Assembly (NCBI GenBank): GCA_029204225.1
Contig: CM055113.1
Span: 29,536,805-29,600,804, forward strand
Reading direction: 5' to 3'
DNA from: Diphasiastrum complanatum
Lineage: Eukaryota; Streptophyta; Lycopodiopsida; Lycopodiales; Lycopodiaceae
Length of the DNA stretch: 64,000 bases
Within the stretch, counting starts at the first letter, position 1. The number at the start of each line of letters is the position of its first letter. Below the pieces are notes generated by a model, which was given only the letters and a program-made list of their open reading frames with translations, ran no database searches and had not been told where the DNA came from. The translations under genes were made by a program, and so were the position numbers. Shown piece after piece: positions 2,627-48,873 of the stretch.

Positions 2627-3655
2627 GCTTGGCGAAGGAGGAGATCACTCAAGAGGAGATCTTGGCAAAGTGTGATCTTGCTTGCATTGAGGAGGAGCAT
2701 CAAAAGGAGGAAGATCTTGAGGATCAGCCTCAAAGCATGAGAGTTCCAAGGGAGTCCTCAATGACAATGGCCGAGTCATCAAATTGCATGCAAATTGTCC
2801 ATTCAAGTGTGCATCTTGCAAGGGTGGTGAGCATTGGAGGGTCTACTATCTTTGAATACTTTTTGGAAAGTATTAGTAGACATGAGGTGACTTGTTTCTT
2901 ACCTTTAAGATCCATGGTGTTTATTACTTTGTATGACAAGACAATGAAATGGGATGCTTTGAAATCTACATTTGTTGTTGATAAAGCAATTTCATTGGAT
3001 AACTATTTTTATAATAGTTTGAATAGAGTCATAAAAGATGAAACATCATTTGCTTTGGAAATCTTTGTGTCCACATGCTTTGTGCATGATCATTCCAATG
3101 TAAGGAACAGAGATTATCCTATTTCAATGATAGGAATAATGGTAGTGTTTTGCTCTTCAAGTAGAGATTGTAGAATCTACTTGTTTTCAACCAAAGAATT
3201 TGTCAATGGTGGAAATGTGATCTTTCAAGAGTGGAAGATTTGTAAACTTGAAGAAGCACCTTTGGATCAACACATTATTCAATTCATTGATGTTTTGGAG
3301 TCAAGTCAAGTGGAGGATCAAGCTCAAGACCCAAGGACTCCAAGAAGAACCTTGAGTATCAAGATGGAGCCATCTAGGCTCAATCATATGGATCAAGCAA
3401 GGCAAGTTGTCTTTGGCAACATTATGTATGCACTTAATATTTTAATTGATGTATCTTCAAGTGCACAAAATGCCTTGGAATCCATGTCTTGGCATGATGT
3501 TTAGTTTTGAACTGTGCTACATGTATATAGACACATTTATGGAACATCTTGTAAGGGATCCTCTAAGAGGTGGTGAAAGATCCTTCATGGACATCATTCT
3601 CTATTGGAGTCTCAAAAGTTCCTTGTTTGTAGCTGGATTTTTTAGACACTTCTAA
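2542..3655 (+). pseudogene. Degenerate pol remnant of copia A with a long open frame
   Basis: An open frame of about 320 codons (2,542-3,504) overlaps the end of gag. Its C-terminal third aligns with the integrase/RT hinge of element F: SSSRDCRIYLFSTKEF matches SSSKGYKVYLPSLNKF, and TPRRTLSIKMEPSRL matches TPRRSSRAKVEPSRL. At about 3,575-3,655 there is a trace of the region before RNase H (GERSFMDIILYWSL against ERSFMDITLFRQL). Integrase core, RT and RNase H are missing. Residues 10-190 resemble nothing I recognise and may be heavily diverged pol or captured sequence. I treat it as a deletion product rather than a host gene. Confidence 0.65.
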
Positions 3656-3714
3656 AACCTTTCATTCATCTATCAAGAGAGTTGCAAATAGATCAAGCTA
3701 AATTTGAGGCATCT

Positions 3715-4415
3715 TGTGAAGAATTGCCAAAAATTGGCAAATCTAGCTTGATCAAAAACCATGTAGAATAGTGTAAATTGTGTACACAAGTGGGTCCCAC
3801 ACATGTGAGGCCATGATGCCACATGGGAAACCCATCCTAATGTAGGTTAGGTCAAGTCAAGAGAGTTGGTCATGTCTATTTGGTGGTCATCCCTACTTTA
3901 TAGGACCTACACCTAAGTTTAAGGTGAAAATTTGACCAACTAGATACCTACCAAGCATAACTCTAGGAAATAGACTAGGGTTTCATTTTAGGTCAAGGAG
4001 AGTGAGTTAACTTCCTTATTACATGCTGGAAATCCACCTAACTTCAAGAAGGAAGTCGAATTTGCTATGTATTCCCTCTCTCCATAGTGAGAAGATAGAA
4101 AATTTTTGGAGCTCATTGGCAATCTCAAGCTAGTTCACTATGTACATTGAGTTTTTGTGATCCAAATGAGACCAAATCAATTTCTACTTGTTTCTCAGGT
4201 TGAAGGCCGTACTACAGCCTGTAGTACACACGTGTGGTCTCTGATTTCAATGTTTATCAATGCTTTTGATTGTTAGTGCTTGTTGTTTGTCAAATTGCCA
4301 ATCTAGATCAACTTTTTTGTGTCTAGTTTTTTGATAGATTGTTAAGCAAGCATCCAATCACTCTTGTGGATCTTTTGTAGATCCATTTATGGTCCTAAAG
4401 TACAGTACTTTCACA
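3715..4415 (+). mobile_element. 3' LTR of copia A
   Basis: Matches positions 1-662 without indels and extends about 39 bases further left. A start at TGTGAAG (3,715) and an end at TTTCACA (4,415) give TG...CA termini and about 701 bp. The candidate right target-site copy is CATCT (4,416-4,420). The left copy lies outside the window and cannot be checked. Confidence 0.85.
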
Positions 4416-4416
4416 C

Positions 4417-4910
4417 ATCTCAACAATTAGAGGAGGAGGAAACGAGAAAGAAATATCATAAGCATTGCAAACATCACAAACGAAGTGATGTGCCGAATTT
4501 CGATTCTTATATTGATTTTGAGTTGTCCATTTCTAGCGACTCAAGCTCCGACTCTTCATCTTTTGAAAACGTTAAAAAAAAACTAGGAAGCATAAAAATA
4601 AGGATGAAGATAGGGAAAAAAACACCTATTTGGAATGATGAAGGGGTCACTACAGAGTTTCAACAAGAGAAAATACAAATTTGCAAAAATTGTAATCAGG
4701 AAGGACATTATTTTAAATATGAATGTCCAAATGGCCACGATATTGTCATCTGTAATATGTATAATCACTAGACTAATGATTGTAGAATTTTACAGGATGC
4801 ACACACTGCAAGAGCATTCGCAATACAGATGCAGTAGCAACAGCAACCACAACCACAATTACAACAGTCACAACGACATGTATTTTGTGCTCCCAAATTC
4901 ATAAAATGGA
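4417..4910 (+). pseudogene. Retroelement Gag C-terminal fragment with zinc-knuckle-like motifs
   Basis: An open frame to 4,771 carries a basic segment (KKYHKHCKHHKRS), a serine/aspartate-rich stretch and a knuckle-like motif, CKNCNQEGHYFKYEC (C-x2-C-x4-H-x5-C, one residue longer than CCHC). A second weak motif with a stop inside it (NMYNH, stop, TNDC) and a glutamine-rich tail follow. It starts immediately after the LTR of element A, which evidently inserted into it. The retropepsin-like fragment at 12,060-12,860 could be the continuation of the same element, with the histone cassette in between. The family is not identified. Confidence 0.5.
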
Positions 4911-5103
4911 GCAGCATTTGATATATAAATGTATATTTTTCTATGAATTCTATACATGCATTTTTTTTCTATGCTATCTATATTTGTTCTGATCTTAATT
5001 TAGTATAACTACATCATCCTTTGCACCATCATCAATAAGGCTGAAGCCTTGCCGTAGCCAGTATACTTAGGATGATTTCTTGTCTAAATCTGTACACCTG
5101 GCT

Positions 5104-5631
5104 TTATGTGTACTTAGAAAGTGTAAACTGCAAAATAGAACATTCATGTATTAGTAATGGCTAAAAACATCAACAAAATAGAAAACTAATCATGATTTCA
5201 AAATAAGAATAAACAGAATTTATTACCTTAGAAATATCAACATCTTGTTGAAAGTTGAACCACTCAAAAAATAGCTTTGCATTGTATAATGTGTACCAAC
5301 CACAGCTGAATGAATCATTTTGCTGGGGGTGACTGCAAAATAATTCAACACACAAGAAATCAATTATGAAACAGAATGAATTAGAATGAAACAATTACAT
5401 TAGAATACTGATTTCAAAATGCTATTAAGAAAGACAGGATTTACCTCCAAACTGACGATCTGCCAATCCACGGAATGGGGAACATCTGTAGGAATATATT
5501 TACTTAGATATGGAAGATATATATCTACATCCTTATGTGTATTTCTCGTCAAATTCATCTTGATACAAAAGCCTTTAATACTATTATTTACAGATCTCTT
5601 AATAGATATCAGGTTTAAACTCCAGTGGCCA
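5104..5631 (-). CDS. Ulp1/C48-like cysteine protease, catalytic exons 2-4 of the H3 fusion gene
   Basis: Predicted exons are 5,631-5,445, 5,332-5,227 and 5,127-5,104. Exon 2 begins GHWSLNLISI, the catalytic His-Trp context of Ulp1 proteases. Exon 3 carries HPQQNDSFSCGWYTLYNA, matching the P-x-Q-x-N-x(2)-D/S-C-G motif with the oxyanion glutamine and nucleophile cysteine. The usual Asp-Cys-Gly is Ser-Cys-Gly here. All introns have GT and AG ends and pyrimidine-TTGCAG-like acceptors. The frame slips by one base at the exon 1/2 and 2/3 joins as I place them, so either small indels have damaged the gene or my boundaries are off. In plants such domains cleave SUMO, and they also ride in transposons. 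Confidence 0.65.
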
Positions 5632-5737
5632 CTGCAAAATAAGATTGAAAGTTCTTTAGCGGCAATTCTGAGAACTAATTAAATTGACAATGCCAATGTT
5701 AATGCATAAAACAGCAAGAAGCATTTAATATATCCTA

Positions 5738-6741
5738 CTTGGTATGATAAGGGATGAGTAGATACTTTGTTGCTGTCCACTTGTCAGACACTGTGACAAT
5801 GTGTCATTATTCTCCTTGAAGGCTTGAAGCAAAAAGTTACTCAGCACCAGCAACTCATTGGATGAACCTCTTGCAATGTCATATTGCAAGAGTGTCAGCC
5901 CAGACTCTATCACAGAATCATTGATAGAAGCTCGTCTGTCTTTGAGATCCAAGCAATCTAGAACTCTAAAATTAATACTAAAATCAAGTTCATCTAGTCT
6001 AAAACAAAAAGGAGTACCAATTGTATTTATGGCATCAGATATGTCTTTCTCAAATTTAAGATAATCATCCGAATCTATATATGTATAAAAATTTGGAGGA
6101 AGAGGAGGAGGTGGATGTGTAGTATCTACAATAATTAAAGGGGTATCCAAAACAAATGTAGCTATATTTACAACATTATCAACAACAACGTTATCTACAA
6201 TTGATTTTGGGTTAGGTTTCATAGAATCTGTGGTGTCTACCCTCTTTACTTTCTTTGGAGCTCTCTTGGGGGCTGTCTGCTTCCTAGGATGCTTCGTAGG
6301 AAGATCAGTCCTATCTAGAGGAGTTGGTCTGGGAGCAGCAGGCTGAGATACGTGTAACCTGCAAAACCTCTCCCTCATTCTCATCAAGAGCTGAAAATCC
6401 TTGGGAATTATGGTAACTCTCTTGGAATGGATGGCAAGCAAAAATGAATCTTCAAAAAAAAGACTAAGGTAATCTTCAGCAGCCCACTGAAGGCACTGAA
6501 GAGCACTGAATGTAAATCTGACCAACTTTTCGAGATCATTTCTTGTTATGTTTCGGACAGCATGGTAGAATGGAGCTCTTGGGATCAACAGAGCAGTTGA
6601 TCTCTGATACTTGCATATCTCAGAGAGCCACCTGTTGCAATTGCGCATTCTAGATCTAGCAGGAGGTGAAATGGCAACCGCAGGGGCTGAGGATGAGCCA
6701 GGAGAGAAGAAGTCCCTCCTTGTCTGCTTTCTCCTATCCAT
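5738..6741 (-). CDS. Histone H3-like fold fused to N-terminal half of a Ulp1-like protease (exon 1)
   Basis: The protein starts MDRRKQTRR, like an H3 tail. Residues about 33-126 form a full H3 fold: EICKYQRSTALLIP in the alpha-N/alpha-1 region, AAEDYLSLFFEDS in alpha-2, and AIHSKRVTIIPKDFQL in loop 2/alpha-3. LLIP, R-x-IT, AAEDYL and KDF are shared with plant centromeric H3 more than with canonical H3. A basic linker (residues 130-175, with HPRKQTAPKRAPKK) and a PPPPLPP stretch follow. Residues about 230-335 match the N-terminal part of Ulp1/C48 SUMO proteases (a DLKDRRASINDSVIESGLTL segment and SSLIIPS). The exon probably ends at CCAA just before GTAGG. Known H3 proteins are about 136 residues and carry no protease. 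The H3 call is strong; function and expression are inferred. Confidence 0.85.
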
Positions 6742-7568
6742 GGATGTGTACTATGCAATAGCGGACTTGTGCATGACGACGAGGATGAGCAGGGAAGGAT
6801 GATAAAGATCTCGCAGAGGACCGATATGTATGGACAGAATGTACGGTATGTCGGACCTGTGCGAGTTGAATATATGAAAGAGCGATTAGTTTTGAAGAAA
6901 GACGCACAAGTATGATACGGGGGGACACGTAGGCAGATGTATCGGACCTGTGCGCATGGAAGGCGGTAGGTGGAATTTCGATTGTGAAGGACGCGCACAA
7001 GTGCGATATGCGGAGCAAAAAAAAAAAAGTGAAAAAAATTCATCGAAGTTTGTGATTTTATATCGCGGTAGGAAAGAACGTCCTGTCACACGTGTGGGAG
7101 TTGTACGGACAAATGAGAGAGCAACATGTGTCACCCTATCACTTTACACATGTGGGATTTGTATGACCAAATGCGAGAGCGACACGTGTTGTCGAGCAAA
7201 TGAATGAACACATTACACATGTCCAGGTGTCATTTCACATGTGTCCAGATGTCACCTCACATGTACCAGTGCCTGTAGTCGAATCGAAAGTAGACACATG
7301 TCCATTGACCATTGACCACACATGCAAAAAGTTAGTATAAATGTCATAAAAACCAATTAATTTTTTTACCTTTTTCATTATCGAAATTTGCGGCATATCG
7401 CTCTTGTGCGCACGCATTGTTGTCCGTTTGCTTTCAACGACACCTATTTGCACACAAGTGCGATATTCGATATCTGCCTGCCATACATATCCCTCTTGTG
7501 CGCCATCTTGATAGTTAGTTTTGTTTCTGTGCTCCCTCGCGCACAAGTGCGATATTCACTTTACTTCC
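6742..7568. promoter_or_regulatory. Divergent promoter spacer with nine copies of a short motif
   Basis: This 827-bp spacer separates the ATG of the H3-like gene from the first ATG of the H2B-H2A-like gene. Variants of GCGCACAAGTGCGATAT occur at about 6,753, 6,847, 6,901, 6,941, 6,991, 7,393, 7,450, 7,485 and 7,538, in both orientations. The best copies are at 6,991-7,013, 7,393-7,415 and 7,538-7,557. Between the two clusters (7,080-7,330) there are many CACATGTG and CACGTG boxes. The layout suggests a shared bidirectional promoter or a protein-binding array, for example for the element's own transposase. Function is inferred only. Confidence 0.6.
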
Positions 7569-9139
7569 ATGGCCTCTTCCTCAAGATCCTCATGAGATTC
7601 AGGCTTGAGTTCATTTCTTAGTGAATTTGGGATTACTGAAAACCTAGACTACTTCCACAGCCTATTCAGGCCATATTCACATATTTTCAGGACTGCACGA
7701 CCAAATTCTGACGTTTTTTATGAACATTATGTTAGATTTAGAGATATACTTAGTAAGCATGTTTTCTCCATAGGTTCACTCCAGTACATGCATTATACTA
7801 ATCTTGTTCATTTCTTCCCAGCTTTCAGACATAGACTGGATAGAATGTTTACCAAATTGTTTGATCTTTTCAGAAGCAGTTCATTGTGTCCTTATTGCAA
7901 CAAGAAATGTCGATCGGTTGAATATCATAGTGGTTTCATACTTTTCATGTTAGTTCAGATCCCAGATGATGAGGAAGTTTCTGTTGGTGACTCTCCTTTT
8001 GCATCATCCTCTGTTCAGTCAGCTATTAAAGATATCAGTCACTTTTTTATCGACACTTTTGATAAGGAAAGTGACTTTATTGATGTAAATACTGATTCTC
8101 TATTGTATTCTTTTATTGGCCAAAATACATCTGCTGATGAATCCAACCCTATAGAGGAGTCTAAATGTCTATTCAATTTGCCTATATATTATATTAATGA
8201 CGATGTATATTTTACTATTGCTGATTTATGTAAAAATTTTTACTATTGTAAAGACGAGGTTCTATGTTTATTATCCGCCACAATTTCCAAATTCTCCGAC
8301 TTTGTAGATTTTGAAACAGATGACCTTGTTGCTGGTATTGATTTTGATGATGAGGAGGGACTTATGACCGGTGAAGAATGCCTGACTAAGACTTTATTAA
8401 ATATAGCTGAGGATGGGCGAGGCAGACCATCCGATGAAGAATTCATGGCATTTCAATCCCAGATGGGCTTCCCTCATCCATCATTATTGCATTTCACTGA
8501 TGATTCCACTTCAGTACATGGTCATTATATTGATCATCCTGATCCGGTTGCTGCTGATGGTGAAGAATGTGTAAGTGTTTAAACTTCCTTGCATTAGAAT
8601 GTTCTTAATCACTGAATGTATTAAAAATTTTTTAATCATTTAAAGTATTAGAATGTTTTTAATCACTGAATGTTTTATTGCTAACATATTTCCTATTGCA
8701 GGATGCTCTCATAATAGATGATTTTGCTGCGAGACCAGGTGGTTTCAGACAACATGCAGTGTCGTTCCAGAGGGATAGTGGACTTGGCCACTATCTTAGG
8801 CATCTCCTGAAGAATGAGATCTGCATTGCTCATTCCAAGCTAAGCCCAGTCGGGGAGAGTCTTATAATGGCAATTAAAGCTTTATCATTTTACCTAGGAG
8901 GACATAAATTTGTAAAGACAAATAAGATCATTTTTGTCAAAAGATCTTATGTTTTGAACATTTTAGGCTTTACTGATGGGAATGTTCCTTTAAGGAGCTC
9001 CCATTATTCATTGTATTCCACTTATATTGAGCTTAGTGGAAATAAGGATAATGCACATCTATTAGATGCATACGCTAGCAGAGAATTTCTTCATGACAAT
9101 ACTGCCATAGAATCTGACACAAGATCTGATGATGAATAG
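7569..9139 (+). CDS. H2B-like plus H2A-like histone-fold fusion (doublet), two exons
   Basis: The ATG at 7,569 reads eight codons into an in-frame TGA (7,593); the frame is then open from 7,596 to a donor at 8,570/8,571. The intron is 8,571-8,701 (GTAAGT...TTGCAG) and exon 2 is 8,702-9,139, both joins in phase 0. Residues about 37-120, numbered from codon 7,605, fit an H2B fold: FYEHYVRFRDILSKH (alpha-1), MHYTNLVHFFPAFRHRLDRM (alpha-2), YCNKKCRSVEYHSG, then LVQIPDDEE against H2B LVLPGEL. Residues 120-322 are an acidic linker. Exon 2 residues about 20-95 fit H2A: SGLGHYLRHLL, SPVGESLIMAIKALSFYLGG, TNKIIFVKRSYVLNIL against NKKTRIVPRHIQLAV. H2B-H2A order matches marseillevirus doublets. Similarity is low but collinear. 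The premature stop makes function uncertain. Confidence 0.6.
8571..8701 (+). other. Intron of the H2B-H2A-like gene
   Basis: It has a GTAAGT donor and a TATTGCAG acceptor, 131 bp, joining the acidic linker to the H2A-like fold in phase 0. Inside it, TTAGAATGTT(C/T)TTAATCACTGA occurs twice (about 8,595 and 8,648), a small internal duplication. The corresponding intron is recognisable in the second copy near 37,210-37,290. Confidence 0.75.
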
Positions 9140-9273
9140 TTGATACTTTGTGTTTTGGTATAATACAATCAATACATTTACATTGAGTATTTCTCCTTCC
9201 TTGTTCAATGAATTTGCAAAGAAATTCTGAACATGTCATGATTTGATGACAATGATGATCTTCTACTCAACAA

Positions 9274-11640
9274 TCATCTAACTTTCTCTTCCTGTATGAA
9301 CTTGCATGCTTTTCTAAACTTGTTGTATTGTGTGGACTTTGTTATATGTCGAATCTGAACTCTGCGGTAGAACCACTGAAACAATTGACAAATGTAGTTT
9401 CGTTTTTCATTGGTTCCTCCATGTTGTGTATTTCAATGAAATGTTGCTCGTGCTTGCCAATGTGACTTCTCCATCCCTTGTGATGACCATACACTCAAGC
9501 TTCCATATGTATTTGCAAAAAATGTTGTATGATCTCTTAGGATGTGCTGCATATGTCAAAATCATAATGTTAGCCTTATGTTTGGATCTAAATATATATG
9601 AAAATTTGAAAGCATTTTGAAAATTTTATACTAACCATGTAATGAGTGATGTGATCTTCTCCCCATGCTTTTGATACTGCATTAACAAACTCAACACAAG
9701 TCCTTTGGACAGCCTTCTTATCAATATCAGAGTATTTTTCTTTTCTTAAAATAGCAATCATACTATCAAGCTTTTTCCATACATCAACTTTTAGTACTTT
9801 GGTTTTGTCGTCTTTCTCGAAGTCTTGAGTGGCAGCAATAATATTTGTCTAGACTGAGTGTTGAATATTAGAAGCCTTACCAGTATGATTTGATAGGAAA
9901 CGACGTGCTTTTTCTCCTCCTATGCTTGGCTTAGTTGGCATGTTCCCATTCTTTCCTGAAAGCTTTTCATCTTTTTATATTTTGACATGTCCTTTATGGA
10001 GTCCTGCTTTTGATAAAACATCTTCTAATCGAGAGATAGCTTCCTTTGCTAATGATGCTGACTTAGTATTCCAAGCAAAAACTACATGAAGATAAATGAT
10101 CTTTTCTATTAATCTAACTTTTGCATGAAGAGTGCAAACATGCACATTTTTTAAGGGGATAGACAACACAGGCTTCCAGTTTGGATCTGCATATTCTCTA
10201 GTAATTCATATACTCCTAGTTACATCTTTTGCCATTTTCATGCAATACAAACAAGGGGGTTTTGATATAGCACCGTGAGAGACATTATACATACATTTCA
10301 ATGTTTTCAAATCACCTGCTAAGTGCCATTCAACATTGAAGTCTCCAACTCCTGGAACATTGAGAAGTCCTCCATCCATATGGTCTTGGATGATCCTAGG
10401 ATAAGATGTCCTTGAGAATATCCATGATAATATATCATGATCCTCTTTTAGCACCTGTCCAAAGAATTAATCAGACTTAGTTTACAATGTATTGATACTA
10501 TTCAATGAATGTAATGTAATAATGAGGCTAGTTACCTGAAACGCTGCCAACCACCATATATCATTTTCCAGCTGGACACTGAATCTGAAATCTTCTTGGT
10601 TCTCTGTTTGTGATAGAGCATCATTCATGAGAGTTATACTAACCCTCTCCATCTTCTGCCCTTTCAAAATTTCTGACTCATCTAACTTAAGTACTATGAT
10701 TATTTTGCCATTCACCTTTTCATAGGTTATATCATAGAATGTCACGATGTATCTCAGCAAGTAATTTAGATCAACAAATAAATTGTTTGATGCATTATAG
10801 AATGTCGATCTTCCATCATTTCCATACACCTCCTCAATATGAAATGGAGTTCCAGTGATCTTATGCATACCTATGTTTAATGTATCCCTCTCTTTCTTCA
10901 AGTGATATGTCCTAGGGATTGGGACTTCTCTAATTTGAACTTGCTTAAAAGCTTCTCTAATTAGTTTAAATATTGGTGCATATGCTTCCCTGCTAATACC
11001 TGCAAAATCATAAGCACCCTGAACTATAGTCTTATCTAAAATTTTTTGAATGTCCACCATCAAAGACTCTGCTATTTTACACTTTACATTTGAAATCCTA
11101 TTGTTCGTCATGATACGCTCAGTGGATTTGCAAGTCAATATTGTGCCCAATGACATTCCTAGTGAAGCATTGTCTTTAATATTCCGAGGAGCTACTAATG
11201 CAGATTTGCAAAAAAAACAGATAGTTAACAGAATATCACCATAGCTGAAATTAAATCCAAATGTCATTGAAAAACTTACAAAAATCAGAATATGCTTACT
11301 TGAATGCACGAATCCTTCTATTTTGATAACCTCTTTTTGAAAGCATTTGAATATCCTTGCAACTTTGTCACTTTCGCTTCATCCATGTAACTAAATGAGT
11401 TATTGAAGAGAATGTGGGATGTGTCAAAGTGCTTGGATCTTGTGGATATAATGTTCCATCTATCCACAAATCCAAGTTTTTTTTACCTTCTACCTTGTAA
11501 CGAGAACGATCCTTAGCAGATATTCGAATTCCTTTGCCTCCTCTTCTCTGCAAAGGTGCCAAATCAATAGGAATATCCACATGTAGATGATACAATGTCA
11601 TCATCAAAAAAATAGTAGAGTAATCAGTTGCATCGAAGTA
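9274..11640 (-). pseudogene. DDE-transposase-like gene, multi-exon, with stop codons
   Basis: Exons by eye: 11,640-11,300, about 11,200-10,536, 10,454-9,636 and 9,546-9,274, with GT-AG introns. Recognisable blocks in order are GGKGIRIS; SKRGYQNRRIRAF; LKLDESEILKGQKMERVSIT, with a candidate first catalytic Asp; EWHLAGDLKTLKCMYNVSHG, with a candidate second Asp; the zinc-like CLYCMK; NVHVCTLHAKVRLIEKI; and SQGMEKSHWQARATFH plus NTQHGG. This block order recalls large uncharacterised transposase-like proteins in animal and other eukaryote genomes, recalled from memory. I cannot assign a named superfamily. In-frame stops near 11,355, 10,207, 9,975, 9,850 and 9,433 mark decay. The gene is convergent with the H2B-H2A-like gene, with only 134 bp between stops. 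Confidence 0.6.
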
Positions 11641-11734
11641 CTGTGACTAGATTCTATGAAGCAAAGAAAAGTACTCATCTTTGATTATATTATATACTAT
11701 GTATGATCAATCCAATCTCCATGCTTTTATGCTT

Positions 11735-11870
11735 GATTCAAATTTGGAAATGCCGCTCATTTTTTCATTCCAATAGGTAGTTGGCGCTCATATTTCCATT
11801 CCAAAGTGATGATGGCGTTCATAATTGGAGATGGCACCCATATTTCCATTCTTGTGGAAGGAATGCATAT
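11735..11870. repeat. Degenerate short tandem repeat near the right side of the histone cassette
   Basis: The unit GGC(A/G)(C/T)(C/T)CATATTTCCATTC recurs about four times with spacings near 30-45 bp (about 11,752, 11,784, 11,813 and 11,834). It lies just upstream of the first transposase-like exon. It could be a subterminal repeat of the element, but no terminal inverted repeat was found. Confidence 0.5.
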
Positions 11871-12059
11871 GTAAACATTTTGCAATTTTTCCTGATTCGA
11901 ATTTGGGGATGGCAGTCATATTCTAGATCTAGTGAAAATATTGCTCTTTTCGTAACCAATGGAGGGAATATTTTTGAAATTAGTCAAGTTATATTGCAAG
12001 CTGTTAACAGTTCTTAATTGTGACTATAGACACTCGTCATAAGGATAAACAAAAAGCAG

Positions 12060-12860
12060 TAAGGTAGGATATGCTGAGTGAAGATTTAGGACCAAGCACG
12101 AGCCACATGTCCAACATTGATGTGGGTCGGTCATATGGCTACGATTACGTAGGAGGCACTGCACCAATTACAGTAGAATTAGGGGCCCAACTCTTCTCAT
12201 GAATTGGTTGATATTGTAGCTGATTAGATTGTTGATTTTATTAGCAATCATAAGTTACAGTTTACAGTGGGATAGTTGATCCAGATTGTGCCTTATTTGG
12301 TGGATTTAAAATGCTCTAAGTTACATGGATATCAACAACCTACAAGATTACCTTTAGTGCCGGTCAATACTATTGTACAATCAACAGAACATAATATTGT
12401 TCCGACATTAAAAATCAAAATCCAAGATCTTAACATTGTGGGTGTACAGATTTATGGTGGGGCAAGTGTGAAGATCATTTTTTGAGAAAACATATCGTAA
12501 ACTAAAAAGTATGCATTTGCAAAAAAAAAAAGTCTACTCGTCATACGAATGGCTAATCATACACATGATTCTCCAGTAGGAGAAATTTGTAAGGTTCTGA
12601 TGTACATTAAAGGATTAAAGTTTTTATTGACTTTTGTAGTTATGAGATATGACTGGAGCTGATGCGTATCTCATACTTTTGGAAAGACCCTAGTTGATAG
12701 CTGCATAAGTCGTGCATGATTGGGCGACGAGATTGTCATGTGCCAAATCCAAAAATAATAGCACTTACAATGAAGTAAAGCTAATAGCAAGAAAAGTACA
12801 AGACCATCATGATAGCAATATTATCCATAGAAAGCTAGAAACATGGAGAACTGTTAAAAT
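12060..12860 (+). pseudogene. Retropepsin-like fragment of a gypsy-type element
   Basis: LKIKIQDLNIVGVQIYGGAS followed by VKIIF matches plant gypsy retropepsins that read V-x-I-D-G-G-(A/S)-x-V-N-I-I. The catalytic Asp is Tyr here. After a frameshift, further pieces fit the region following the protease (PVGEICKVLMYIKGLKFLLTFVV, broken by stops, then a trace of the G-R-P-W-L block read as ERPWL). Several stops show it is dead. Position and strand are compatible with it continuing the Gag fragment at 4,417-4,910. Confidence 0.5.
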
Positions 12861-12929
12861 TTTGTTAGGATCTACTGTAGTATGAAGATCACATCAATCA
12901 ATCACCATAGACACTCCTAAAAAGCTCTC

Positions 12930-13172
12930 AAAGCATATGAGAACGGGGTGATGATCATATTGACACACTCAGATTTAACTCTTACCAGAGTTAACACTAT
13001 GTCGCTGCAGGAAGATAATCGAAGAAGTCACGATGCTTCGTCGACTTCATCATCTCAACCTCTATATGTCAACAAAGAAGCTCTAAGCAATCTGCCTCAA
13101 ATCAGAAACCGACTTAAAGTCAAGAACAATGATCAAATCCACAATTGAAAAAGAAGATGTTTAGTAAGTATT
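12930..13172 (+). pseudogene. Copia family C Gag fragment
   Basis: The frame LQEDNRRSHDASSTSSSQPL then YVNKEALSN parallels the family C Gag on the minus strand at 33,150-33,420 (LQEDNRRSQDTLSTSSSQAL). The fragment stops at KRRC, where the zinc knuckle would begin, and is cut by the LTR that starts at 13,177. Confidence 0.7.
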
Positions 13173-13176
13173 GCAA

Positions 13177-14020
13177 GTGCACTGTGAAATTTCACACATG
13201 TGGAAATCTCCTAATGTGTGTGAATGATCTCCTAAGTCTAAGCTTATGCACTTTAGATCAATACTAGAGTGAAATCTAAGATCTAGATCAAAATCTAAGG
13301 CAAAGAGGCAAAGATAGATGCATAGATTGATAACCAAAGTGTTTCTACATGTAAGAGAAGTACTCCATGAAAAAAAAAAACTAAGTAAAATTAAGTTCCT
13401 CTCCTCGGATAGAGAGAGAATCGAACAATTGTTCTCAAGTAGAGAGAGAAGGTAATACTCACAAAAACTTGATTACACTCAAATTTGCTCAAAATCTCAA
13501 TTGCATAATGATTGGTAGAGAGAGTACATATGAAACTCGTGGAGAGCTTTTCTAACTTCCTAGTGGACCCCTAATCCTAGCCTCTCTAATGCTATTGGAT
13601 GACTGATGCATCCATCTTGCAATTCTATTGGACCCTTTATGAAGATTCCTCAATTTCTATTGGACCCCTTGACCAAAGCCAATACTTTGACTTGATCACT
13701 CATCAAATTACATTAACACAAGTGTCACAAGCCTATTTACAGGCCTAACTAGCTCGAGATTGCATCATAAGCTACTTTTGGCTCAATAGAGGCATTACAT
13801 GTGGATTTGACCAATTTGCCATCTATTGCAATTTTTGACCCTATCACAACTCTACACCAAGATGCTTGACATAAAAACTTAGGAAACCCCTAAAGCTATG
13901 ATAGATAGCTTTTTATGATTTTCAAAATCCTCCTTAAAAGATATCTATTCTAAAAAAACATTGATCTTGGATTATTTGCAAGTGCTTGGGCCGAAATATT
14001 ATCACAATATAACAATGGTA
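13177..14020 (-). mobile_element. LTR of a copia E-like element with a trace of RNase H
   Basis: Positions 13,177-13,933 resemble the element E LTR at 61,345-61,958. They share a start near TTCACACATGTGG, a GATCTCCTAAGT block and AACTCGTGGAGAG, in the same orientation. At 13,950-14,010 the minus strand reads YCDNISAQALANNP, the RNase H sequence near the end of copia pol (compare CDNISAQALANNP in element E). So this is a 3' LTR with only about 80 bp of internal sequence left. Confidence 0.6.
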
Positions 14021-27336: not shown

Positions 27337-29933
27337 CTAGTTTCTTTTTATTTTTTCTGTTGTTCTTACAAATCAAAGAAGCTGTGGGTCCGAAAAGTCC
27401 GATTTTTGTTGTGAATTCAAGTCAGCATCTGTGAAGCTGTGTTTGGGCATGAAATTGTACTCCATTCAAATCACATCCTTGATAGTGTCTTCCAGCTGTG
27501 CGTTTTCCTGTACCTTTCAATCTTTGGTATGGAGTTAATTGTACATAGTGGCAAATACATATTTTCTTTGCAGATGCAAACCGATTTCATATTTGCTTGC
27601 CTCTGCTTTAGGATTTGCCTTCACACAAACATTTGGATACTAAATTCTAGATCAAGTTACTTGTTGGATTGGCTTTTTAAAGGTAGTCGCTTTGCCAAAA
27701 ACATGGAAGAATGTGCTTTGAGAGAGTTGCGAGCCTAACGACAATTAAGAACTCTTCTAGTTTTTCTCCCCACCCATTCGATTCTTTGAACCTTTTCTTC
27801 GCCATTCATTCGATAATGACATCCCTGCTTTTCTCCCTTGCCAATTTGTTTAATAGTGCTTGCAACAATCTTTACTTTTGCATTGCAGTAACAGAAAACT
27901 AGAGCCTTTTCAAAGAGTGCGAAACTTCGGAGACTGACAATTTGAAGCTTCGTTATTGGTAAGATTAAACGATATCAGATTGTCAGATATCATTGCCATA
28001 CTACCTAGTAGTATTGATGTATAGGAACTATCATCGTAATGATTCGAGAAACTCTTTCTTGAATTCTTTGTACAAACTTTTTTATCAACAATTTATACTA
28101 CAATTGGTGATACCGTCTTTAGGAACACAAAATAGCTCAACACACCAATAATTTTGAATTTTGAAAAAAAAATTCATTTTGAATTTGGACATTCTTTCTG
28201 TATCAAAATGAATATAATTTTATATGCAATTGTTATCAGAATTATGTGTATTGCATTTAGAATACTTATCTATTACAAAATATTGAAAATCATTTTCTGT
28301 TTTTGATTCAAATGTTGTTTTTCTTATAAAATTGAATAAATGATACAATTTCAATGCTATGAATTTCAATTTGTTATTTTAGTACATATCTATTGTTTTT
28401 TATAGCATATAAAATTTTAGTTAAAAAAGAATGCCATACAAAATTCATTCTGTTTGTAAATGTTTTCCAGTTTGTTTATTTTTTACAATGACTAACACCG
28501 TTGATAATTGTTTCATCTCTCGCTATATATTTTGATAGTCGAAGTCTTATCAAGAAAAATTTTATGCTTTGGCATAAGGTGAATAATATCGATTCCTAGT
28601 CAATACTCAATAGAAACAATTTTTCAAAGAAAATAAAAGATTTGTTTGCTTAGAATTGAAAACACACGATCAATTGTCCCATAAAAAATGCAATTACGAA
28701 CGAAACGAACGTTAACTGAAAGACATAAAATCGTGAAAGAAAATGTTTTCAAGAAGAAAAGAAAACAATTTATTCCATATATCAATGGATGGCTTAAAAC
28801 GAAAGAATATCAAGTGTCTGGAAAATGTTGTGTATGCGTTGGCTTATTCTGACGAATCCCCAAAATACTCGGACAGAGCAACTCAAGAGCACCTTTCACC
28901 TTAGACCGAGGAGGTCCCTGAGAAGACGAGACTAATGAAGACTGAGAGCCAAGTATGAGAGCCGAGAAATACTAGCTAGGAAAGACATGCAAGAACTGTG
29001 TAAGCCTCATGGTGAATCCCGGAAGATGGAATGACCATGTAGGAACTAGTATTTCTAGGCAAATGTAATAAATGCAAGTAGACCCCTCTTAAAGAAAGTA
29101 GAGTGAGCCACCTTTTGATGGTGACCTCTAGTGGAGAGCATTATTCCACTTGTAATTTGTGAAATGTCGAAATTCTACTAGGATGCCACCTAAGGAGCTC
29201 TCTTGCTTATTTAAGAGACTCCCTCTTTGTGAAGAGGAGCTTTTTGTGTATTCTATCAACTCCATGCTGAAATGAGAAGAGCCTCCATGAGTTAGATGCA
29301 TCCATTGAGCTCCTTGATCCTGATGGTTTTCTTGAGTGATGCCCCTATGATCATGCCCTTCCATTCATATTGTGTGTGGTTGTGGATCTAGAGTGGATTA
29401 GTTTTCTTGCTTTCCTAGTTGTGGATTAGATTTCATGTTTTCTTGTGGATTAATGTAGGAGCCAACATTCAAGTAAACTAAATAGGCTAGAAATTTGGCA
29501 TAAATCTTGCATATTCTCTAACATTCTAGCTCTTGATGTTCTTGGGATGTCCAAGAATCAAAAGACTGGTTAGTTTCTTGATTCTTGGACTTCTAACATG
29601 CTGTGCATTAGTTCTTGTTTCTTGTTTTGTCAATTTATGCAAGTAAAGTAGTGTAGGATCTGATTTTAGTTCGTTTTGCAGCAAAGTAGAAGTAGGAATC
29701 CATCGTTGTTCAACTGAGCAGTAACGTAGATCATTTGTTGAACACATTGGCTTGCATTTTGGTTGATTATGCATGTGCATTCAGTTCAAGAGTGACCCAT
29801 CCGGATGTCCTCTGACAGGCAGGACAATACTACAATGATTATCAGTCCCTTCAGTCTAATCTGGGCCTTAAAACAAGAAAGAAACAAAGAAGACTAGTAA
29901 ACAGATTCTATAGGCTCTAAAGATGTCAACAGT
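27337..29933. other. 2.6 kb without a recognised gene
   Basis: Both strands are rich in stops. 28,850-29,520 has the look of an LTR (TATTTAAGAG near 29,208 followed by a short leader-like stretch), but no second copy or primer-binding site is visible. No RNA gene was recognised. Confidence 0.4.
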
Positions 29934-31690
29934 ATGGAAATTATCGGACAAATAAAATGTTGTTCTACATGTGGAAGTACAAATTTCTTCAAGAAAGAAC
30001 ATAATAAGAAGTTTCAAAATTCGAATGAAAATGTCCCACCTTATGCAATAGCTAATACTTTTTTATGGAAATATACATATACAAATGAGGAACAAAAACA
30101 GTGGTATACATGCGCTTTATGTAAAACTTATCCAGATCGAATAAAATACATAGTATTTTCTTCGCCTACGTATTTACGTTCTCTTTTTAAGATTGACATG
30201 TCACATTTACAATTGTTATCCATAATAGATATTTTAGTAGATGTGACTCGACACATAAACTCATTCGTGATAGGATAACTTGAAAAAAGATCGCTTTTCG
30301 ACAATCTGATTGCTTGCAATTTGAATAGATATACGAATGATAAAGAAGAATTAGAAAACGTGTTACGCCAGAATATTTTGCACAATTCGATATTAAGAAC
30401 TTTTTTGAGCATATATGAATATAATGCCGAAACTCAAGTGTTACCGTTTATACCTTAGCTTCGTGTCAAGAAATGTTAAAAACTGAAATACATGCATTCG
30501 AAAACATGGAAATCGATCCATTCGAACGACTATATATATTATTGCAAGACATAACGCCCTGCAGCAAAAGACAAAATATCCAAAAAGATGACATATATAC
30601 ATATTCAAATTTACGGATTAGAACAAGAACGCATGAACGAAAAGAAACATCGATGTTTAGAACAAAAGTTTCTGGATTGCCGTTAATGACTGAACAAAAA
30701 CAATTCATCACATTAAAAAATGCAATTTTCCCATTTATGTTTTCATTTGGTCACGGTTATTACGATGGGAAAATACGTTATATCGATTACATAAAACTGA
30801 GAGTTTCTTCATTGTTTTCTTCATTTACACTATATCCACCATGTTTACTTATAATGTATCAAATACGACAAGCAATCTTGATAACAACAAATGTGTCATC
30901 TTTTGCAAAAAGACATTATTGAATTCGTTAATAAACATCCAACTACAAATGAAGAACAGATTTTTAGAAATGTTTTGAAATTCACTTTCCCACGCGAAAT
31001 GCCATGGCATAGACGGAATTTTTAAAGATCCATCATGGCATAGACGGAATTTTAAAGTTTTGAAAATGATTAGCTCTAACGTGACAATAATATGCACTCA
31101 CAAAGAAAATGTCAAAAGATATAACAAATGTGCTTTACAGAAACTCTTCGAAGAGAAAAATATCATAAACGTACCAGTCAAAACAAATGCATCAGACAAT
31201 CCAAAATTTAAATCATGGCTTGAGGACTCGTCATTTTATCAACTAGACCAAATTGCAAAGAATGCAAAAACATGGTTCTTACGAATCTAGACATAACAAA
31301 CCGAATAGTTAATGGAGCGACCGGAACGATTTAAGACTATGCGCATTTGAATCAAATGAATGAAATCGATTCTATCACGATAACACTCGATGGATCTGAC
31401 AAAAAAATGAAAATTACGCCATCAACTATTAGGAAATTGAGATACGATTCTAAAATATATTAAAAATGCACTTTTTCTTTAACATTAGCATATGCTATTA
31501 CAGCTCATTAATCGCAAGGCATAACAATCAGCAACACTACAATAATTGATATTGAAAACAATTTCTATCCAGGATTAATTTACGTTATGTTATCTCGAGT
31601 GACAAGACGAGAACACATATTTCTCACACGCAAACTAACACCTGCAAATTTTGATCCAACACCAGCCACTATGAATCAAACAAGTACTTA
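29934..31690 (+). pseudogene. Helitron-type Rep/helicase protein with large internal deletion
   Basis: The N-terminal domain has CCSTCGSTNFF and YTCALCK cysteine pairs and YLRSLFKIDMSHLQLLSIID. A Helitron-like N block follows (FPFMFSFGHGYYDGKIRYID, YIKLRVSSLF, LLIMYQIRQAI). The text then jumps at about 31,010-31,060 to the C-terminus of a PIF1-type helicase: VTIICTHKENVKRYN, NLDITNRIVNGATGTI, LAYAITAH-SQGITI, DIENNFYPGLIYVMLSRVTR. Rep HUH motifs and the Walker boxes are lost. Several stops and frameshifts occur. A repeated CATGGCATAGACGGAATTTT marks the deletion junction. Confidence 0.75.
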
Positions 31691-31827
31691 ACATTCACAA
31701 TATGGTCTGATTCTACGACATCTAAATCTTTGTGACACAGTACTTGATTATTTATTGTTCTAGAAATATCATATCTAAAATATTTCATTTCTAATTTTCC
31801 AATTGTATTTGAAACCAGAGATCCGAT

Positions 31828-32603
31828 ATGGCATTACAAGAGCTTACAGAGGCTCAAAAGGTATATTGTTATGAATATCGTGAATCATTTTTTAAACTCG
31901 AATAAAATACCTAAAAAAAAGAACGCTTTTAACTATTCAAAATTCGTAATTTATTCTAATAATGACTTTTATGGTGAAAACTTTCACAAGCTTTTTCGAA
32001 AACTAAAAGAAGAAACTCAACAACCGCAAGCTTCGACATCTGAAGATCTTGAAGAATTGCGAATTTATCCTACGACGCGACAAATGTTTCTATTGAATGC
32101 TTGCGGGATCAATCCAGAACAATACAAAGACGGGTTTCAAAATAGTTACACTATGAGCACATATATCACAACACATAAACGTGCGAGAGAAACCTATGTG
32201 CATGAACATCACAAAGATCCTATAGAAGGTAACAAATCACCTCTATTTTTATTTATTTATTTTCCATTCTGTTCTTTTACTTTATTACATTAAACATATG
32301 AAAATCATATTATTTTTATAACATATTTCAAACTTGCAGGATTTTTGATAAACTATTTTCTATTCTAATCCCGGATTCGATCAAGACGAACAAGACGGTG
32401 ATACAACATTTCGAAGCGCACTCTGACAAACGTTATTATGCAATTTGTAACCTATATTTCGGTTACAACATTGCTTTTTCAGATTGGAAAACCATGTCTC
32501 GAATAGAATTAAATGCTATCAATACAGATTTAGGGAGACAACTTGGCCATCTCTCTGACACTGGAATTCGACTGACAGACGGTCCTATCACAATTGAAAA
32601 CGT
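31828..32603 (+). pseudogene. Unidentified spliced ORF downstream of the Helitron helicase
   Basis: It starts MALQELTEAQKVYCYEYRES at 31,828 and needs one frameshift near 31,905 to continue as FNYSKFVIYSNNDFYGENFH. It then reads TTRQMFLLNACGINPEQYKD to a GTAACA donor at 32,228. An acceptor at about 32,339 leads to DTTFRSALSDKRYYAICNLY and RQLGHLSDTGIRLTDGPITI. I do not recognise a domain. Its position right behind the helicase suggests cargo of the Helitron. It is cut at about 32,603 by the end of copia D pol. Confidence 0.4.
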
Positions 32604-32735
32604 TCTGAACACTAAGCCACTTGCTGGAAAAAAGTTTGATAAGTTTAGATCAAAGCTTTATGTACTTAAAGTTTGTTGACTTTAAAGCTATGTATATGAT
32701 TGTATAAAAAGTAGAATCTACTTTAAGGGAGAGAG
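32604..32735 (+). pseudogene. Copia D RNase H C-terminus and polypurine tract
   Basis: TKPLAGKKFDKFRSKLYVL is the usual C-terminal tail of copia RNase H. The frame ends shortly after, and AAGGGAGAGAG (32,725-32,735) is the polypurine tract immediately before the LTR. The junction with the Helitron-linked frame at about 32,603 is one proposed inversion breakpoint. Confidence 0.75.
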
Positions 32736-34218: not shown

Positions 34219-35098
<880 letters not shown>

Positions 35099-35529: not shown

Positions 35530-35968
35530 TTTTTTTGGATCTTGAGATCAAGGACCTTAATTCGGGTGGATCCAAGGTTGGATTTTAGGGTTAGGTTATG
35601 AAAAGTACAGAGATGCTATAAATATGTGATGAGATCTCCATCAACTTATGAGTAAAAAATTGGTTTTCAATCTACCAATGTTGTTGGTGATCTAGATGTT
35701 TGATATTTGCTATTTTTGTTAAGTAATTTGACTTTGTGAGATTGATTTGGAACTTCAGGTGCTGTACTCTTACCTATGGCAGTCTGTATTTTCACACGTG
35801 TGAAGGGATTTGCATGAATTTGAGCCTACAAGTGGAGTTCAAGCCAAGGGGAAGCTAGGAAACACTAAAATGGTTGGTGTTTTAGCTATAGGATCTCAAT
35901 TGGACCATTCAAGGTGCTTCCTCCATCATTTCAAAGGTTTATTAGAGTCTATTTGTTGTATTTTTAAC
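35530..35968 (+). mobile_element. Solo-like LTR related to copia F
   Basis: Its right half parallels the F LTR: TTCACACGTGTGAA at 35,791-35,804, then GGAGTTCAAG and CCTCCATCATTTCAAAGG against CCCTCATCATTTCAAGTG, ending TTTTTAACA against TTTTTACA. The left limit is vague. It abuts and cuts the transposase-like fragment that starts at 35,970. Confidence 0.6.
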
Positions 35969-35969
35969 A

Positions 35970-36235
35970 TATTCAATGTTTCTCATGGAGCTAATTCAAA
36001 GCACTTTTGTCTATATTGCATGAAGACAACAAAAGACATGACAAGGAGTACATCAACTTGCCTACTCAAAGCAGAAGTTTGGAAGAAGCTTGACAACATG
36101 GTAAAATATTTAATAAAATATAAGTTTTCAAATACTGATGTGCAAATGTTACTGAAAGCAACCAGCGAATTTGTTGATGCAGTTTAGAGTGCATGGGGAG
36201 CAGATCACATAACACATTATATGGTAAGATTTTGA
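35970..36235 (+). pseudogene. Second copy of the transposase-like gene (C-terminal fragment)
   Basis: NVSHGANSKHFCLYCMKTTK matches NVSHGAISKPPCLYCMKMAK of the copy at 9,274-11,640. The frame then skips part of the protein and continues as AEVWKKLDNM, KFSNTDVQMLLKATSEFVDA and AWGADHITHYM, ending at the same splice donor position (ATG before GTAAGA). One in-frame stop is present. This shows the gene is repeated in the genome. Confidence 0.8.
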
Positions 36236-36399
36236 AGCAGTACACAATTCCATGATACTATAGTATAAAATTGATATTTGTTGTTTTTTAGAACCAATGT
36301 TATACATTTTGAGAGAAATGTCTAGGTTTGAGACTAGCCATTTCTCCTTTGGAATTATTGATAATATTGACTATTTCACTTCTATCGTTTTTCCATTTC

Positions 36400-37410
36400 T
36401 TTTTGTTTTGCCGTTTGTCACCGAAGGGCCTAGACGTAGAGGCCTTTTCTAAGATTTATTTTAGATTCAAGTCTTCTCAGAATAAGGATATGATACACTA
36501 TCAGGACTTGATGAACATTGACATGAATAAATATAAAGCCAAGCTTGAGAGGATGTTTTACAAAGTTGCATGATGATTTGTCAACTTTTGTTTGTTATCT
36601 TTTGTTAAACATTGAGGATGATTCTAATAATGCTTCATCATCTACTTTCGAGGCCGGTTCATCAAGTAGTGTCAGAATTGAGAAGTCCAACCTGCTGATT
36701 TGGATTCATTTCTTCAAGATACAAATAAATAATGATGATTGTAAAAATTTTGACCCTATCGAAATAGGGCTTTATTTATAGGTCCTTAGTCTACTACATC
36801 TCTTCCCCCTCATTACAAAACTTTGATTACCCTCCCTACGTATAATGTCAATAATGATTCTTTTTTCACATTATCAAATATATAAGATCTTTTTTACTTC
36901 ACAGAGGCTGAAGCCCTTTGTATTTTGAGCACGGAATTAGATGATTTTCCTGATTTGAATGATTACGAGATTGATGATCTTCTCCCTGGAGTGGATGACC
37001 CAGTCAATGATCAATTTCTGTGAGGAAAAGATTGCTTGAAGATAGTCGTTGAGCAAGTGCATAGAAATGAAGCTGATCTTCCTAGTGAAGATGAGTTTCT
37101 TAGAATTCAAAATCAATTTGACTTTCCAGAGCCATCAATATATTCTCCAAGCTCTTCGACTTCGAGAGGAGGCCACAATGGACAGTCATAAATGAAGACA
37201 AAGGTGAATGCGTAAGTTCTTGTTTGAATTTTACTAGATAATATGTGATGCTAAAATTATGTATTTGAACTCACCTTTGTTTCGATTTCAGAAAACTCTT
37301 TATGTGGATGAGTTTGCAATTCGTCGAGGACACAGATCTTCCGGCCGGTTAATTTCTAAGAGATCATGCATTGGGTTATTATTTGAAGTCCTTCAAGAAT
37401 AATGAGATAA
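36400..37410 (+). pseudogene. Second copy of the H2B-H2A-like histone gene, degraded
   Basis: Collinear with 7,700-8,830. HYQDLMNIDMNKYKAKLERM in the H2B-like alpha-2 matches HYTNLVHFFPAFRHRLDRM. After a frameshift, FVCYLLLNIEDDSNN matches FILFMLVQIPDDEE. The acidic linker matches at EALCILSTELDDF and EDEFLRIQNQFDFPEPSI against DEEFMAFQSQMGFPHPSL. An intron follows (GTAAGTTC...TTTCAG, about 37,212-37,291), and YVDEFAIRRGHRSSGRLI begins the H2A-like exon. Stops and frameshifts are frequent and the H2A part is cut at about 37,410. The H2B loop cysteines of copy 1 are missing. Conservation of intron and linker supports a true gene family. Confidence 0.7.
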
Positions 37411-47915: not shown

Positions 47916-48872
47916 ATGGCATCTATAAATGCATATCTTTTGGATACTAATGAAAGGCTCAACAAAACTAACTATTCCATATGGAAAGTTAGAATGGAAT
48001 CCATCATGATCATGCAAGATCTGATGGAAATTGTAAATGGTAAGGAGGGTGAACCTATTCATCCTCAAGAAAAAGCCAAATACATCAAGAGGTGCAATGT
48101 TGCACTACATTGCATAAAAATGAATGTTGCAAATGAACTCTTAAGAGAGGTAGGAGATTGCACTTCAGCTCAAGATGCTTGGGAGACTTTGCAAAAGTTC
48201 TATGAATCCAAGAACCAAACTAGAATGTTAGCTTTGAAGAATCAAATCTATAGAAGCTATCAAAAGAAAGGAGAGAGTGCACATACGTTTTTCCTAACAG
48301 TAAAGGAATTGAACAAAGAGCTAGCCTTTATAGGTGACCCTATCAAGGATGAAGAGCTTGTTCAACTCATATTGAATGGACTAAGCTTTGAGTTTGACAA
48401 TTTGGTTCAGGGATATGCAATTATGGGTAAGCTACCCATACTTGAAGAACTTCAAGGCACACTCATGGCCGAGGAATCAAGAAGGAGCCAAATGCAAGAG
48501 AGGATGGATAGGCTTTCCATCAAAGGTGGAGATGACCAAGCTCTCTTCACCAAAGGCAAAGGCAAGTCCAAAGGCAAAGGATCAACATTCAAGAAGTCTA
48601 CAAAGCTTGAGGATCAAGAAGGACCCTCAAAGGCATCTCCATCAACCACCAAAGTCAATAAGGACAAATCAAAGGTGAAGTGCTACTATTGTAGCAAGAT
48701 GGGGCATTATGCCTCGGAATGCTTCAAGAGGAAGCAAGATCAAAGCCAAGCCAACATGAGCAAAGAGGAGGAGGAGGAGGAGAGTTCACATGAGGACTCT
48801 CTCATGATGTCCATTTCTTCAACAAGCTTCAAAGGAGAAGATCCTTGGTGGATTGACTCGGGTGCTAGTTGA
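47916..48872 (+). CDS. Copia F Gag
   Basis: 318 codons from ATG 47,916. UBN2-type Gag core (NERLNKTNYSIWKVRMESIM, then SAQDAWETLQKFYESK and LVQLILNGLSFEFDNLVQGY), a lysine-rich segment, the zinc knuckle CYYCSKMGHYASEC, an acidic stretch and the protease start PWWIDSGAS, then a stop at 48,872. The stop results from a deletion of about 80 nt relative to element A, which removes the sequence after DSGAS and shifts frame. Gag itself is intact. An 800-bp leader separates it from the LTR. Confidence 0.93.
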   Translation: MASINAYLLDTNERLNKTNYSIWKVRMESIMIMQDLMEIVNGKEGEPIHPQEKAKYIKRCNVALHCIKMNVANELLREVGDCTSAQDAWETLQKFYESKNQTRMLALKNQIYRSYQKKGESAHTFFLTVKELNKELAFIGDPIKDEELVQLILNGLSFEFDNLVQGYAIMGKLPILEELQGTLMAEESRRSQMQERMDRLSIKGGDDQALFTKGKGKSKGKGSTFKKSTKLEDQEGPSKASPSTTKVNKDKSKVKCYYCSKMGHYASECFKRKQDQSQANMSKEEEEEESSHEDSLMMSISSTSFKGEDPWWIDSGAS

Positions 48873-48873
48873 T

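Follow-up and report, generated by a model that had tools for sequence, protein, structure and literature searches.

The genome of the lycopod Diphasiastrum complanatum harbours a high-copy DNA transposon that carries its own strongly diverged histone H3, in one family together with a Ulp1 protease domain. A broken copy of this element, belonging to family 1, lies at positions 4876–12034 of the stretch analysed here, which comprises 64,000 nt of contig CM055113.1 (positions 29,536,805 to 29,600,804 of the forward strand; the whole stretch is called the window below). Two diverged families of the element were seen, with a common gene set of a DDE-type transposase, an H3 protein, and two further genes, here called gene A and gene D. 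Judging from sequence, we give about even chances to the view that the element is an anti-silencing cassette with its own H3, to which family 1 adds Ulp1. The H3 fold, the Ulp1 match, the element ends, the gene set found in both families, the linkage of the genes, the ratios of nonsynonymous to synonymous differences (pN/pS), and the histone tail support this view.

A sequence-only reading of the window had suggested a mobile cassette of three genes, encoding an H3-Ulp1 protein, an H2B-H2A protein, and a DDE-like transposase. The core of that idea holds, because the genes are present in high copy number, occur together across the genome instead of being single-copy loci, and lie between terminal inverted repeats.

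The Transposon Encodes a Histone H3 with a Reduced Tail

The open reading frame (ORF) at 5725–6741 on the minus strand of the window has a histone H3 fold, as seen by Pfam (PF00125, E 5.7e-22) and by comparison to H3 chains in PDB (best E 3e-20); HHalign gave 99.8% against H3. In local alignments with the canonical H3 of this genome, identity amounts to 44% for family 1 and 49–56% for family 2. The protein retains residues that we take to be the equivalents of H113, K115, R116, and D123. When the 338 aa ORF was compared to a protein database, an H3-like protein of the alga Closterium was the one match; ordinary-length H3 fell outside the length limits of this search, and the source genome itself was perhaps excluded. 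A phage collection gave no match to the H3 protein.

In the window copy the tail starts with DRRKQTRRD, and its only lysine is that at position 4. In family 2 the protein starts with ARTKQTAR like canonical H3, continues with D in place of K9, and has a low-complexity stretch of about 300 residues before the fold; it has K4 and no further lysine before position 94. Among the tail marks tested, the K4 end is retained in both families, and K9, K27, and both ARKS motifs are lost. The tail pattern was matched by 8 of 13 family-2 copies (seven of them exactly ARTKQTAR) and by 7 of 8 family-1 copies including that in the window (six with DRRKQTRRD, one with DKRKQTRRD).

We compared copies within each family, after removal of four near-identical pairs, of matches below 70% identity, and of pairs shorter than 50 codons. 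The pN/pS values were 0.37 and 0.47 for the H3 core and 0.44 for the family-2 insert, all biased toward constraint by the choice of loci with open H3 frames. Exon 2 of gene A, which is not directly affected by this choice, gave 0.36 and 0.43.

By content, the nearest published case is that of hAT transposons in Dothideomycete fungi, which are also DNA transposons that amplify H3. According to the source (PMC6710886), these elements have inverted repeats and 8-bp target duplications, their H3 is a captured transcript of ordinary H3, and in one case 784 H3-like sequences have accumulated. The fungal H3 copies were inactivated by RIP in Pseudocercospora and relatives, while 23 of 26 Pyrenophora copies appear functional (PMC6710886). 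The lycopod element differs from what is described there (PMC6710886) in having another transposase, no target duplication, a strongly diverged H3 that is fused to Ulp1 or has a long insert, two diverged families, and two extra genes. Neither a hAT domain (Pfam) nor an 8-bp target duplication (four empty sites) was found in it.

The fungal precedent (PMC6710886) lends weight to the idea that the lycopod H3 was likewise picked up in a chance transduplication and is carried along as a functionless passenger, as do the stop codons in many of the listed copies and the bias of the fetched loci toward open frames. Such passive capture is unlikely in our view: both families retain H3 despite a transposase identity of only 43% and an inversion of the block that holds H3 and gene A. 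In addition, family 2 has preserved the very N-terminal end of H3, with a core that has fallen to about 49–56% identity with canonical H3 (44% in family 1). The pN/pS values, with their selection bias, also argue against it.

In Family 1 the H3 Protein Is Predicted to Be Joined to a Ulp1 Domain

In the window copy the Ulp1 frame is broken past exon 1, and the window pieces alone gave no C48 match in Pfam. Two other family-1 copies, L017 and L026, with their exons joined by eye at GT/AG sites, i.e., by predicted splicing, matched Pfam Peptidase_C48 with E values of 5e-10 and 9e-10 (39.9 and 39.1 bits versus a cut-off of 20.7), and the H3 and Ulp1 exons could be joined in one frame in both. In a comparison to solved structures, the best two matches were Ulp1 proteases (E 0.003 and 0.004); His, Gln, and Cys align, the His and Cys with those of yeast Ulp1. 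Of the H3-Ulp1 gene proposed for the window, the H3 fold and the Ulp1 exons are borne out, the latter through the C48 match of L017 and L026.

An accessory protein with a Ulp1 domain is also described for another group of plant DNA transposons, the VANDAL (MULE) elements, which encode VANC and KIU proteins and for which an anti-silencing role of the Ulp1-bearing protein is reported (PMC13317346). In contrast to these elements as described there (PMC13317346), no MULE transposase domain was found by Pfam in the lycopod element, and the partner of Ulp1 is histone H3. The VANDAL precedent (PMC13317346) and the single joinable frame in L017 and L026 would both fit an H3 that serves as a delivery handle, by which Ulp1 in family 1, or the insert of the tail in family 2, is anchored to chromatin, with the nucleosome being incidental. 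We judge this improbable, since family 2 keeps H3 with no Ulp1 detected in the pieces scanned and since the preserved end of the tail would not be needed by a mere anchor.

The Window Copy Is a Broken Family-1 Element

The H3 gene and gene A are divergent and gene A and the transposase gene are convergent, with 134 bp between the two stops, so that the compact layout described in the sequence-only reading is confirmed. The features of this copy are as follows.

4876–12034, no strand assigned: remnant of a family-1 element (blastn edges against the copies L014, L017, L024, and L026)
5725–6741, minus strand: exon 1 of the H3-Ulp1 gene, with the tail DRRKQTRRD, H3 fold, linker, and start of the protease domain (Pfam, PDB, copies in the genome)
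6373–6687, minus strand: histone H3 fold, protein residues 19–123 (matches to PDB H3 chains)
5445–5631, minus strand: Ulp1 exon 2 with catalytic-type His (HW); limits by eye, homologous exon inside the C48 match of other copies
5227–5332, minus strand: Ulp1 exon 3, out of frame with exon 2 in this copy; contains the Gln and Cys in QQNDSFSCG
6742–7568, no strand assigned: divergent promoter region, in which CACAAGTGCGATAT is found at 6996, 7453, and 7542
7569–8570, plus strand: gene A exon 1, with an in-frame TGA at 7593; limits by eye
8702–9139, plus strand: gene A exon 2, common to both families with 32–36% amino acid identity
9274–11586, minus strand: DDE-type transposase pseudogene with stop codons (matches at about 11380–11586, 9612–11153, and 9328–9546)

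At one end the copy lacks gene D together with the left inverted repeat, and at the other the last ~146 bp, which include the right inverted repeat, are gone; no terminal repeat was found when window positions 3201–13200 were searched for one. By its sequence, this copy is a defective relic.

All three occurrences of the motif CACAAGTGCGATAT in the window lie in this promoter region between H3 and gene A, and two of them contain the full palindrome GCACAAGTGC. The sites are possibly binding sites for a protein of the element.

Element Ends, Copy Number, and Insertion Sites

In other copies the element is bounded by inverted repeats starting with CATTAG (CATTAG..CTAATG). Family 1 has CATTAGAGGAGTTCTCAATATCAAAAAGACCC, inverted at both ends, in L017 (8,681 bp) and L026 (9,305 bp). 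When the ends of ten copies were fetched by estimated distance, four copies yielded one end, four none, and two both ends; the last are further family-1 copies (C1:60101101-60110116 and C18:40047685-40056957, ends alone fetched). The ends of family 2 are CATTAGGGCCCTTTTTGGACTCAAAAAGGGCC, both of which are present in L010 (the left one with one mismatch), a copy of 6,404 bp from which most of the transposase is gone. From an end pattern and a transposase match we infer that C2:7606063-7614199 is a complete family-2 element. Between the two families the block of H3 and gene A is inverted; gene D and the transposase stay at opposite ends. Part of one copy, L014, is rearranged, and gene A exon 2 is found there a second time, on the opposite strand.

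A genome-wide scan for the end patterns with up to two mismatches counted 990 + 1,034 ends (2,024) for family 1 and 858 + 836 (1,694) for family 2, and the patterns read backwards, which served as control, gave 0. A histone search of the 1.74 Gb assembly resulted in 6,325 first-look candidates, and scores were obtained for 150 of them. Canonical H3 accounted for 13 of these, at 164–165 bits (e.g., L001); among the matches listed, divergent candidates scored 83–110 bits, many with open frames near 330 aa. With the window H3 ORF as query there were 9,350 candidates; all 119 that were scored match it with 78–100% amino acid identity, many having at least one stop. A copy of the H3 ORF with 99% protein identity (G000:C22:29434555-29435568) is located at a distance of about 108 kb from that in the window, perhaps as a result of a segmental duplication.

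Five copies have both ends, and for four of them (L010, L026, C1, and C18) an empty site was found; none was found for L017 among the sequences compared. The target-site duplication was 0 bp at all four sites, which are paralogous: in each best alignment the flanks join without a base gained or lost. The empty-site relative of C18 is only 69% identical, and a second relative (64%) has a one-base gap near the junction. Of the two hallmarks that the sequence-only reading had named as a check, terminal repeats are present and target duplications were not found.

These data also bear on the possibility that the locus is an integrated fragment of a giant virus and not a transposon. Giant viruses encode histones, which counts for it. 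Against it stand the inverted repeats with precise empty sites, pattern scans of IMG/VR, based on either the transposase alignment or the H3 protein, that returned no relative, and the finding of no viral gene among the element pieces scanned with Pfam. We consider a viral origin extremely improbable.

The Genes of the Element Occur Together

We fetched 20 divergent H3 loci (7 of family 1 and 13 of family 2), which were selected for long stop-free frames and represent a biased set. Gene A was found beside H3 in 5/7 loci of family 1 and 13/13 of family 2, and the transposase in 5/7 and 7/13, respectively, the family-2 stretches often ending too early. Gene D was present in 6/7 and 10/13 loci, so that the three genes noticed in the window underestimate the cassette, which has a fourth gene in other copies.

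The linkage was also seen when the search started from the transposase. A search with the transposase P0002 led to 19,995 candidates; of the 51 among them that were scored, nine had an H3 match within 5 kb, with one more being ambiguous (the H3 list contains the best-scoring copies only). For eight top-ranked transposase matches (ranks 1, 4, 6, and 9–13) the stretch 1.6–3.8 kb downstream was fetched; ranks 3 and 5 were skipped because their H3 neighbour was already listed, ranks 2, 7, and 8 as likely duplicates or ambiguous. Seven of the eight stretches hold H3 and gene A (E below 1e-4), although in L063 gene A is represented by no more than a short fragment at the edge, and one (L059) holds neither. 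Around eight canonical H3 loci (3.4 kb each) none of the element's other genes was found.

Linkage to the transposase would also suit an H3 that acts within transposition itself, by compacting the DNA after its excision or by giving the synaptic complex its shape. Transposases are not known to require histones of their own, and we consider this explanation very unlikely.

The Transposase Shows Marks of the CMCT Clade

As proposed from the sequence alone, the gene on the minus strand from 11586 to 9274 encodes a DDE-type transposase, which is decayed in the window. A two-sequence profile search, in which the best 7,999 candidates were scored, led to 60 proteins, one of them from the fern Adiantum nelumboides. 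Two alignments show D, D, and E, with a CxxC that follows the second D and an H(4)H placed 20 residues ahead of the E; in the second alignment, the E is reached by only two (P0002 and P0003) of the 21 rows. The two families are 43% identical in our own alignment. With the transposases of both families and seven relatives, Pfam gave no match above the cut-off, except for DUF7794 in the other half of P0061, and PDB gave nothing significant for the transposase (best E 0.08, a coiled coil). A two-pattern scan of prokaryote genomes found no relatives. P0061, the predicted protein from Adiantum nelumboides, joins part of the transposase core to DUF7794, either as an annotation artefact or as a fused gene.

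PMC12730594 describes a CMCT clade (EnSpm/CACTA, Mirage, Chapaev, Transib, Plavaka, ESTA, and Lanisha) with C(2)C and H(3-4)H between the second D and the last E, CA..TG ends, and 2–5 bp target duplications. The lycopod element has C(2)C, H(3-4)H, and CA..TG termini as described there (PMC12730594); it differs by 0-bp instead of 2–5-bp duplications and shows no significant similarity in Pfam or PDB. The transposase looks like those of the CMCT clade by these described marks, and we do not assign it there. In the open-access papers searched we came across no name for a lineage of transposases that combines inverted repeats with seamless insertion.

Genes A and D

Gene A (7569–9139, plus strand) consists of two exons with a TGA at 7593, and was first read as H2B-H2A. 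This assignment has no support from Pfam, PDB, or HHalign: HHalign gave 0.1–0.3% against H2A, H2B, H4, H3, and archaeal histone. As a control, the transposon H3 itself reached 99.8% against H3 but only 0.3–24% against H2A, H2B, H4, and archaeal histone, so that a strongly diverged H2A could escape this method. The AlphaFold model of exon 2 had a mean pLDDT of 34.5, too low to read a fold, and gene A had no match in the protein database, from which the source genome itself was perhaps excluded. Gene D exon 1 resembled a BAH domain by eye; Pfam and PDB gave no support for this.

Other Features of the Window

Transposase and gene A relics do recur together, as had been noticed from the sequence for two of the three genes at 35,970–37,410; they lie on one strand, unlike at the first locus.

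35849–36226, plus strand: diverged transposase relic (36% identity, E 4e-15)
36817–37125, plus strand: diverged gene A relic with two stops (34% identity, E 2e-16)

A Copia-like long reading frame at 47916–51801 is split into two overlapping frames (318 + 998 aa), and several plus-strand open frames at 29901–32676 possibly belong to another mobile element. A long (GA)n microsatellite is found at 34778–34912, and similar stretches are located inside the family-2 copies L021 and L010. Rfam gave no match in the window.

A Possible Role in Evading Silencing

That the cassette acts on chromatin, as the sequence-only reading had proposed, we infer as well. The transposon H3 would pair with host H4 and enter nucleosomes on or near the element. 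Such nucleosomes could not receive the usual silencing marks, because the tail keeps the H3K4 end and lacks K9, K27, and other lysines, while the K4 end would still be readable. In family 1, the tethered Ulp1 may remove nearby SUMO, which supports silencing. In this way the cassette would keep the transposon expressed, a proposed purpose comparable to that of VANC/KIU of VANDAL elements (PMC13317346) and of TET/JBP-carrying transposons (PMC12730594). The more specific proposal that this lineage builds silencing-resistant nucleosomes and wraps its DNA in chromatin beyond the reach of host silencing, with an H3 that keeps the K4 end, a mark of active chromatin, and is unmodifiable at K9/K27, a SUMO protease in one branch, and genes A and D as further chromatin partners, is possible, if on balance doubtful.

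Several observations weigh against an anti-silencing cassette. Constraint is weaker than in the H3 core for gene A exon 1 (pN/pS 0.55 and 0.69), for the family-1 H3 linker with the start of Ulp1 (0.61), for family-2 gene D (0.60), and for the transposase (0.62 and 1.21), and the copies that entered this comparison had been chosen for their histone score and for an open H3 frame. The Asp position of Ulp1 is apparently Asn, which makes protease activity uncertain, and Pfam found no Ulp1 in the family-2 pieces scanned. Genes A and D are without assigned function, and no H4 gene was recognised in the element.

Chromatin- or DNA-modifying cargo is described for TET/JBP-carrying transposons and SET-carrying HarbingerS elements (PMC12730594); the cargo there consists of enzymes, and here it is a histone. 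In the open-access literature we found no transposon lineage with its own diverged and conserved histone, the fungal hAT cases being the only ones of a histone in a transposon.

Enzymes and factors that counteract silencing are already known as transposon cargo. Our data suggest that a transposon may also carry its own chromatin parts to evade silencing. A lineage that has its own histone, with a tail cut down to the K4 end, would, if true, represent a new anti-silencing route and a natural test of which histone residues are needed for silencing, for which the genome of D. complanatum supplies very many natural variants. The transposase lineage, with its inverted repeats and seamless insertion, would be of interest on its own account.

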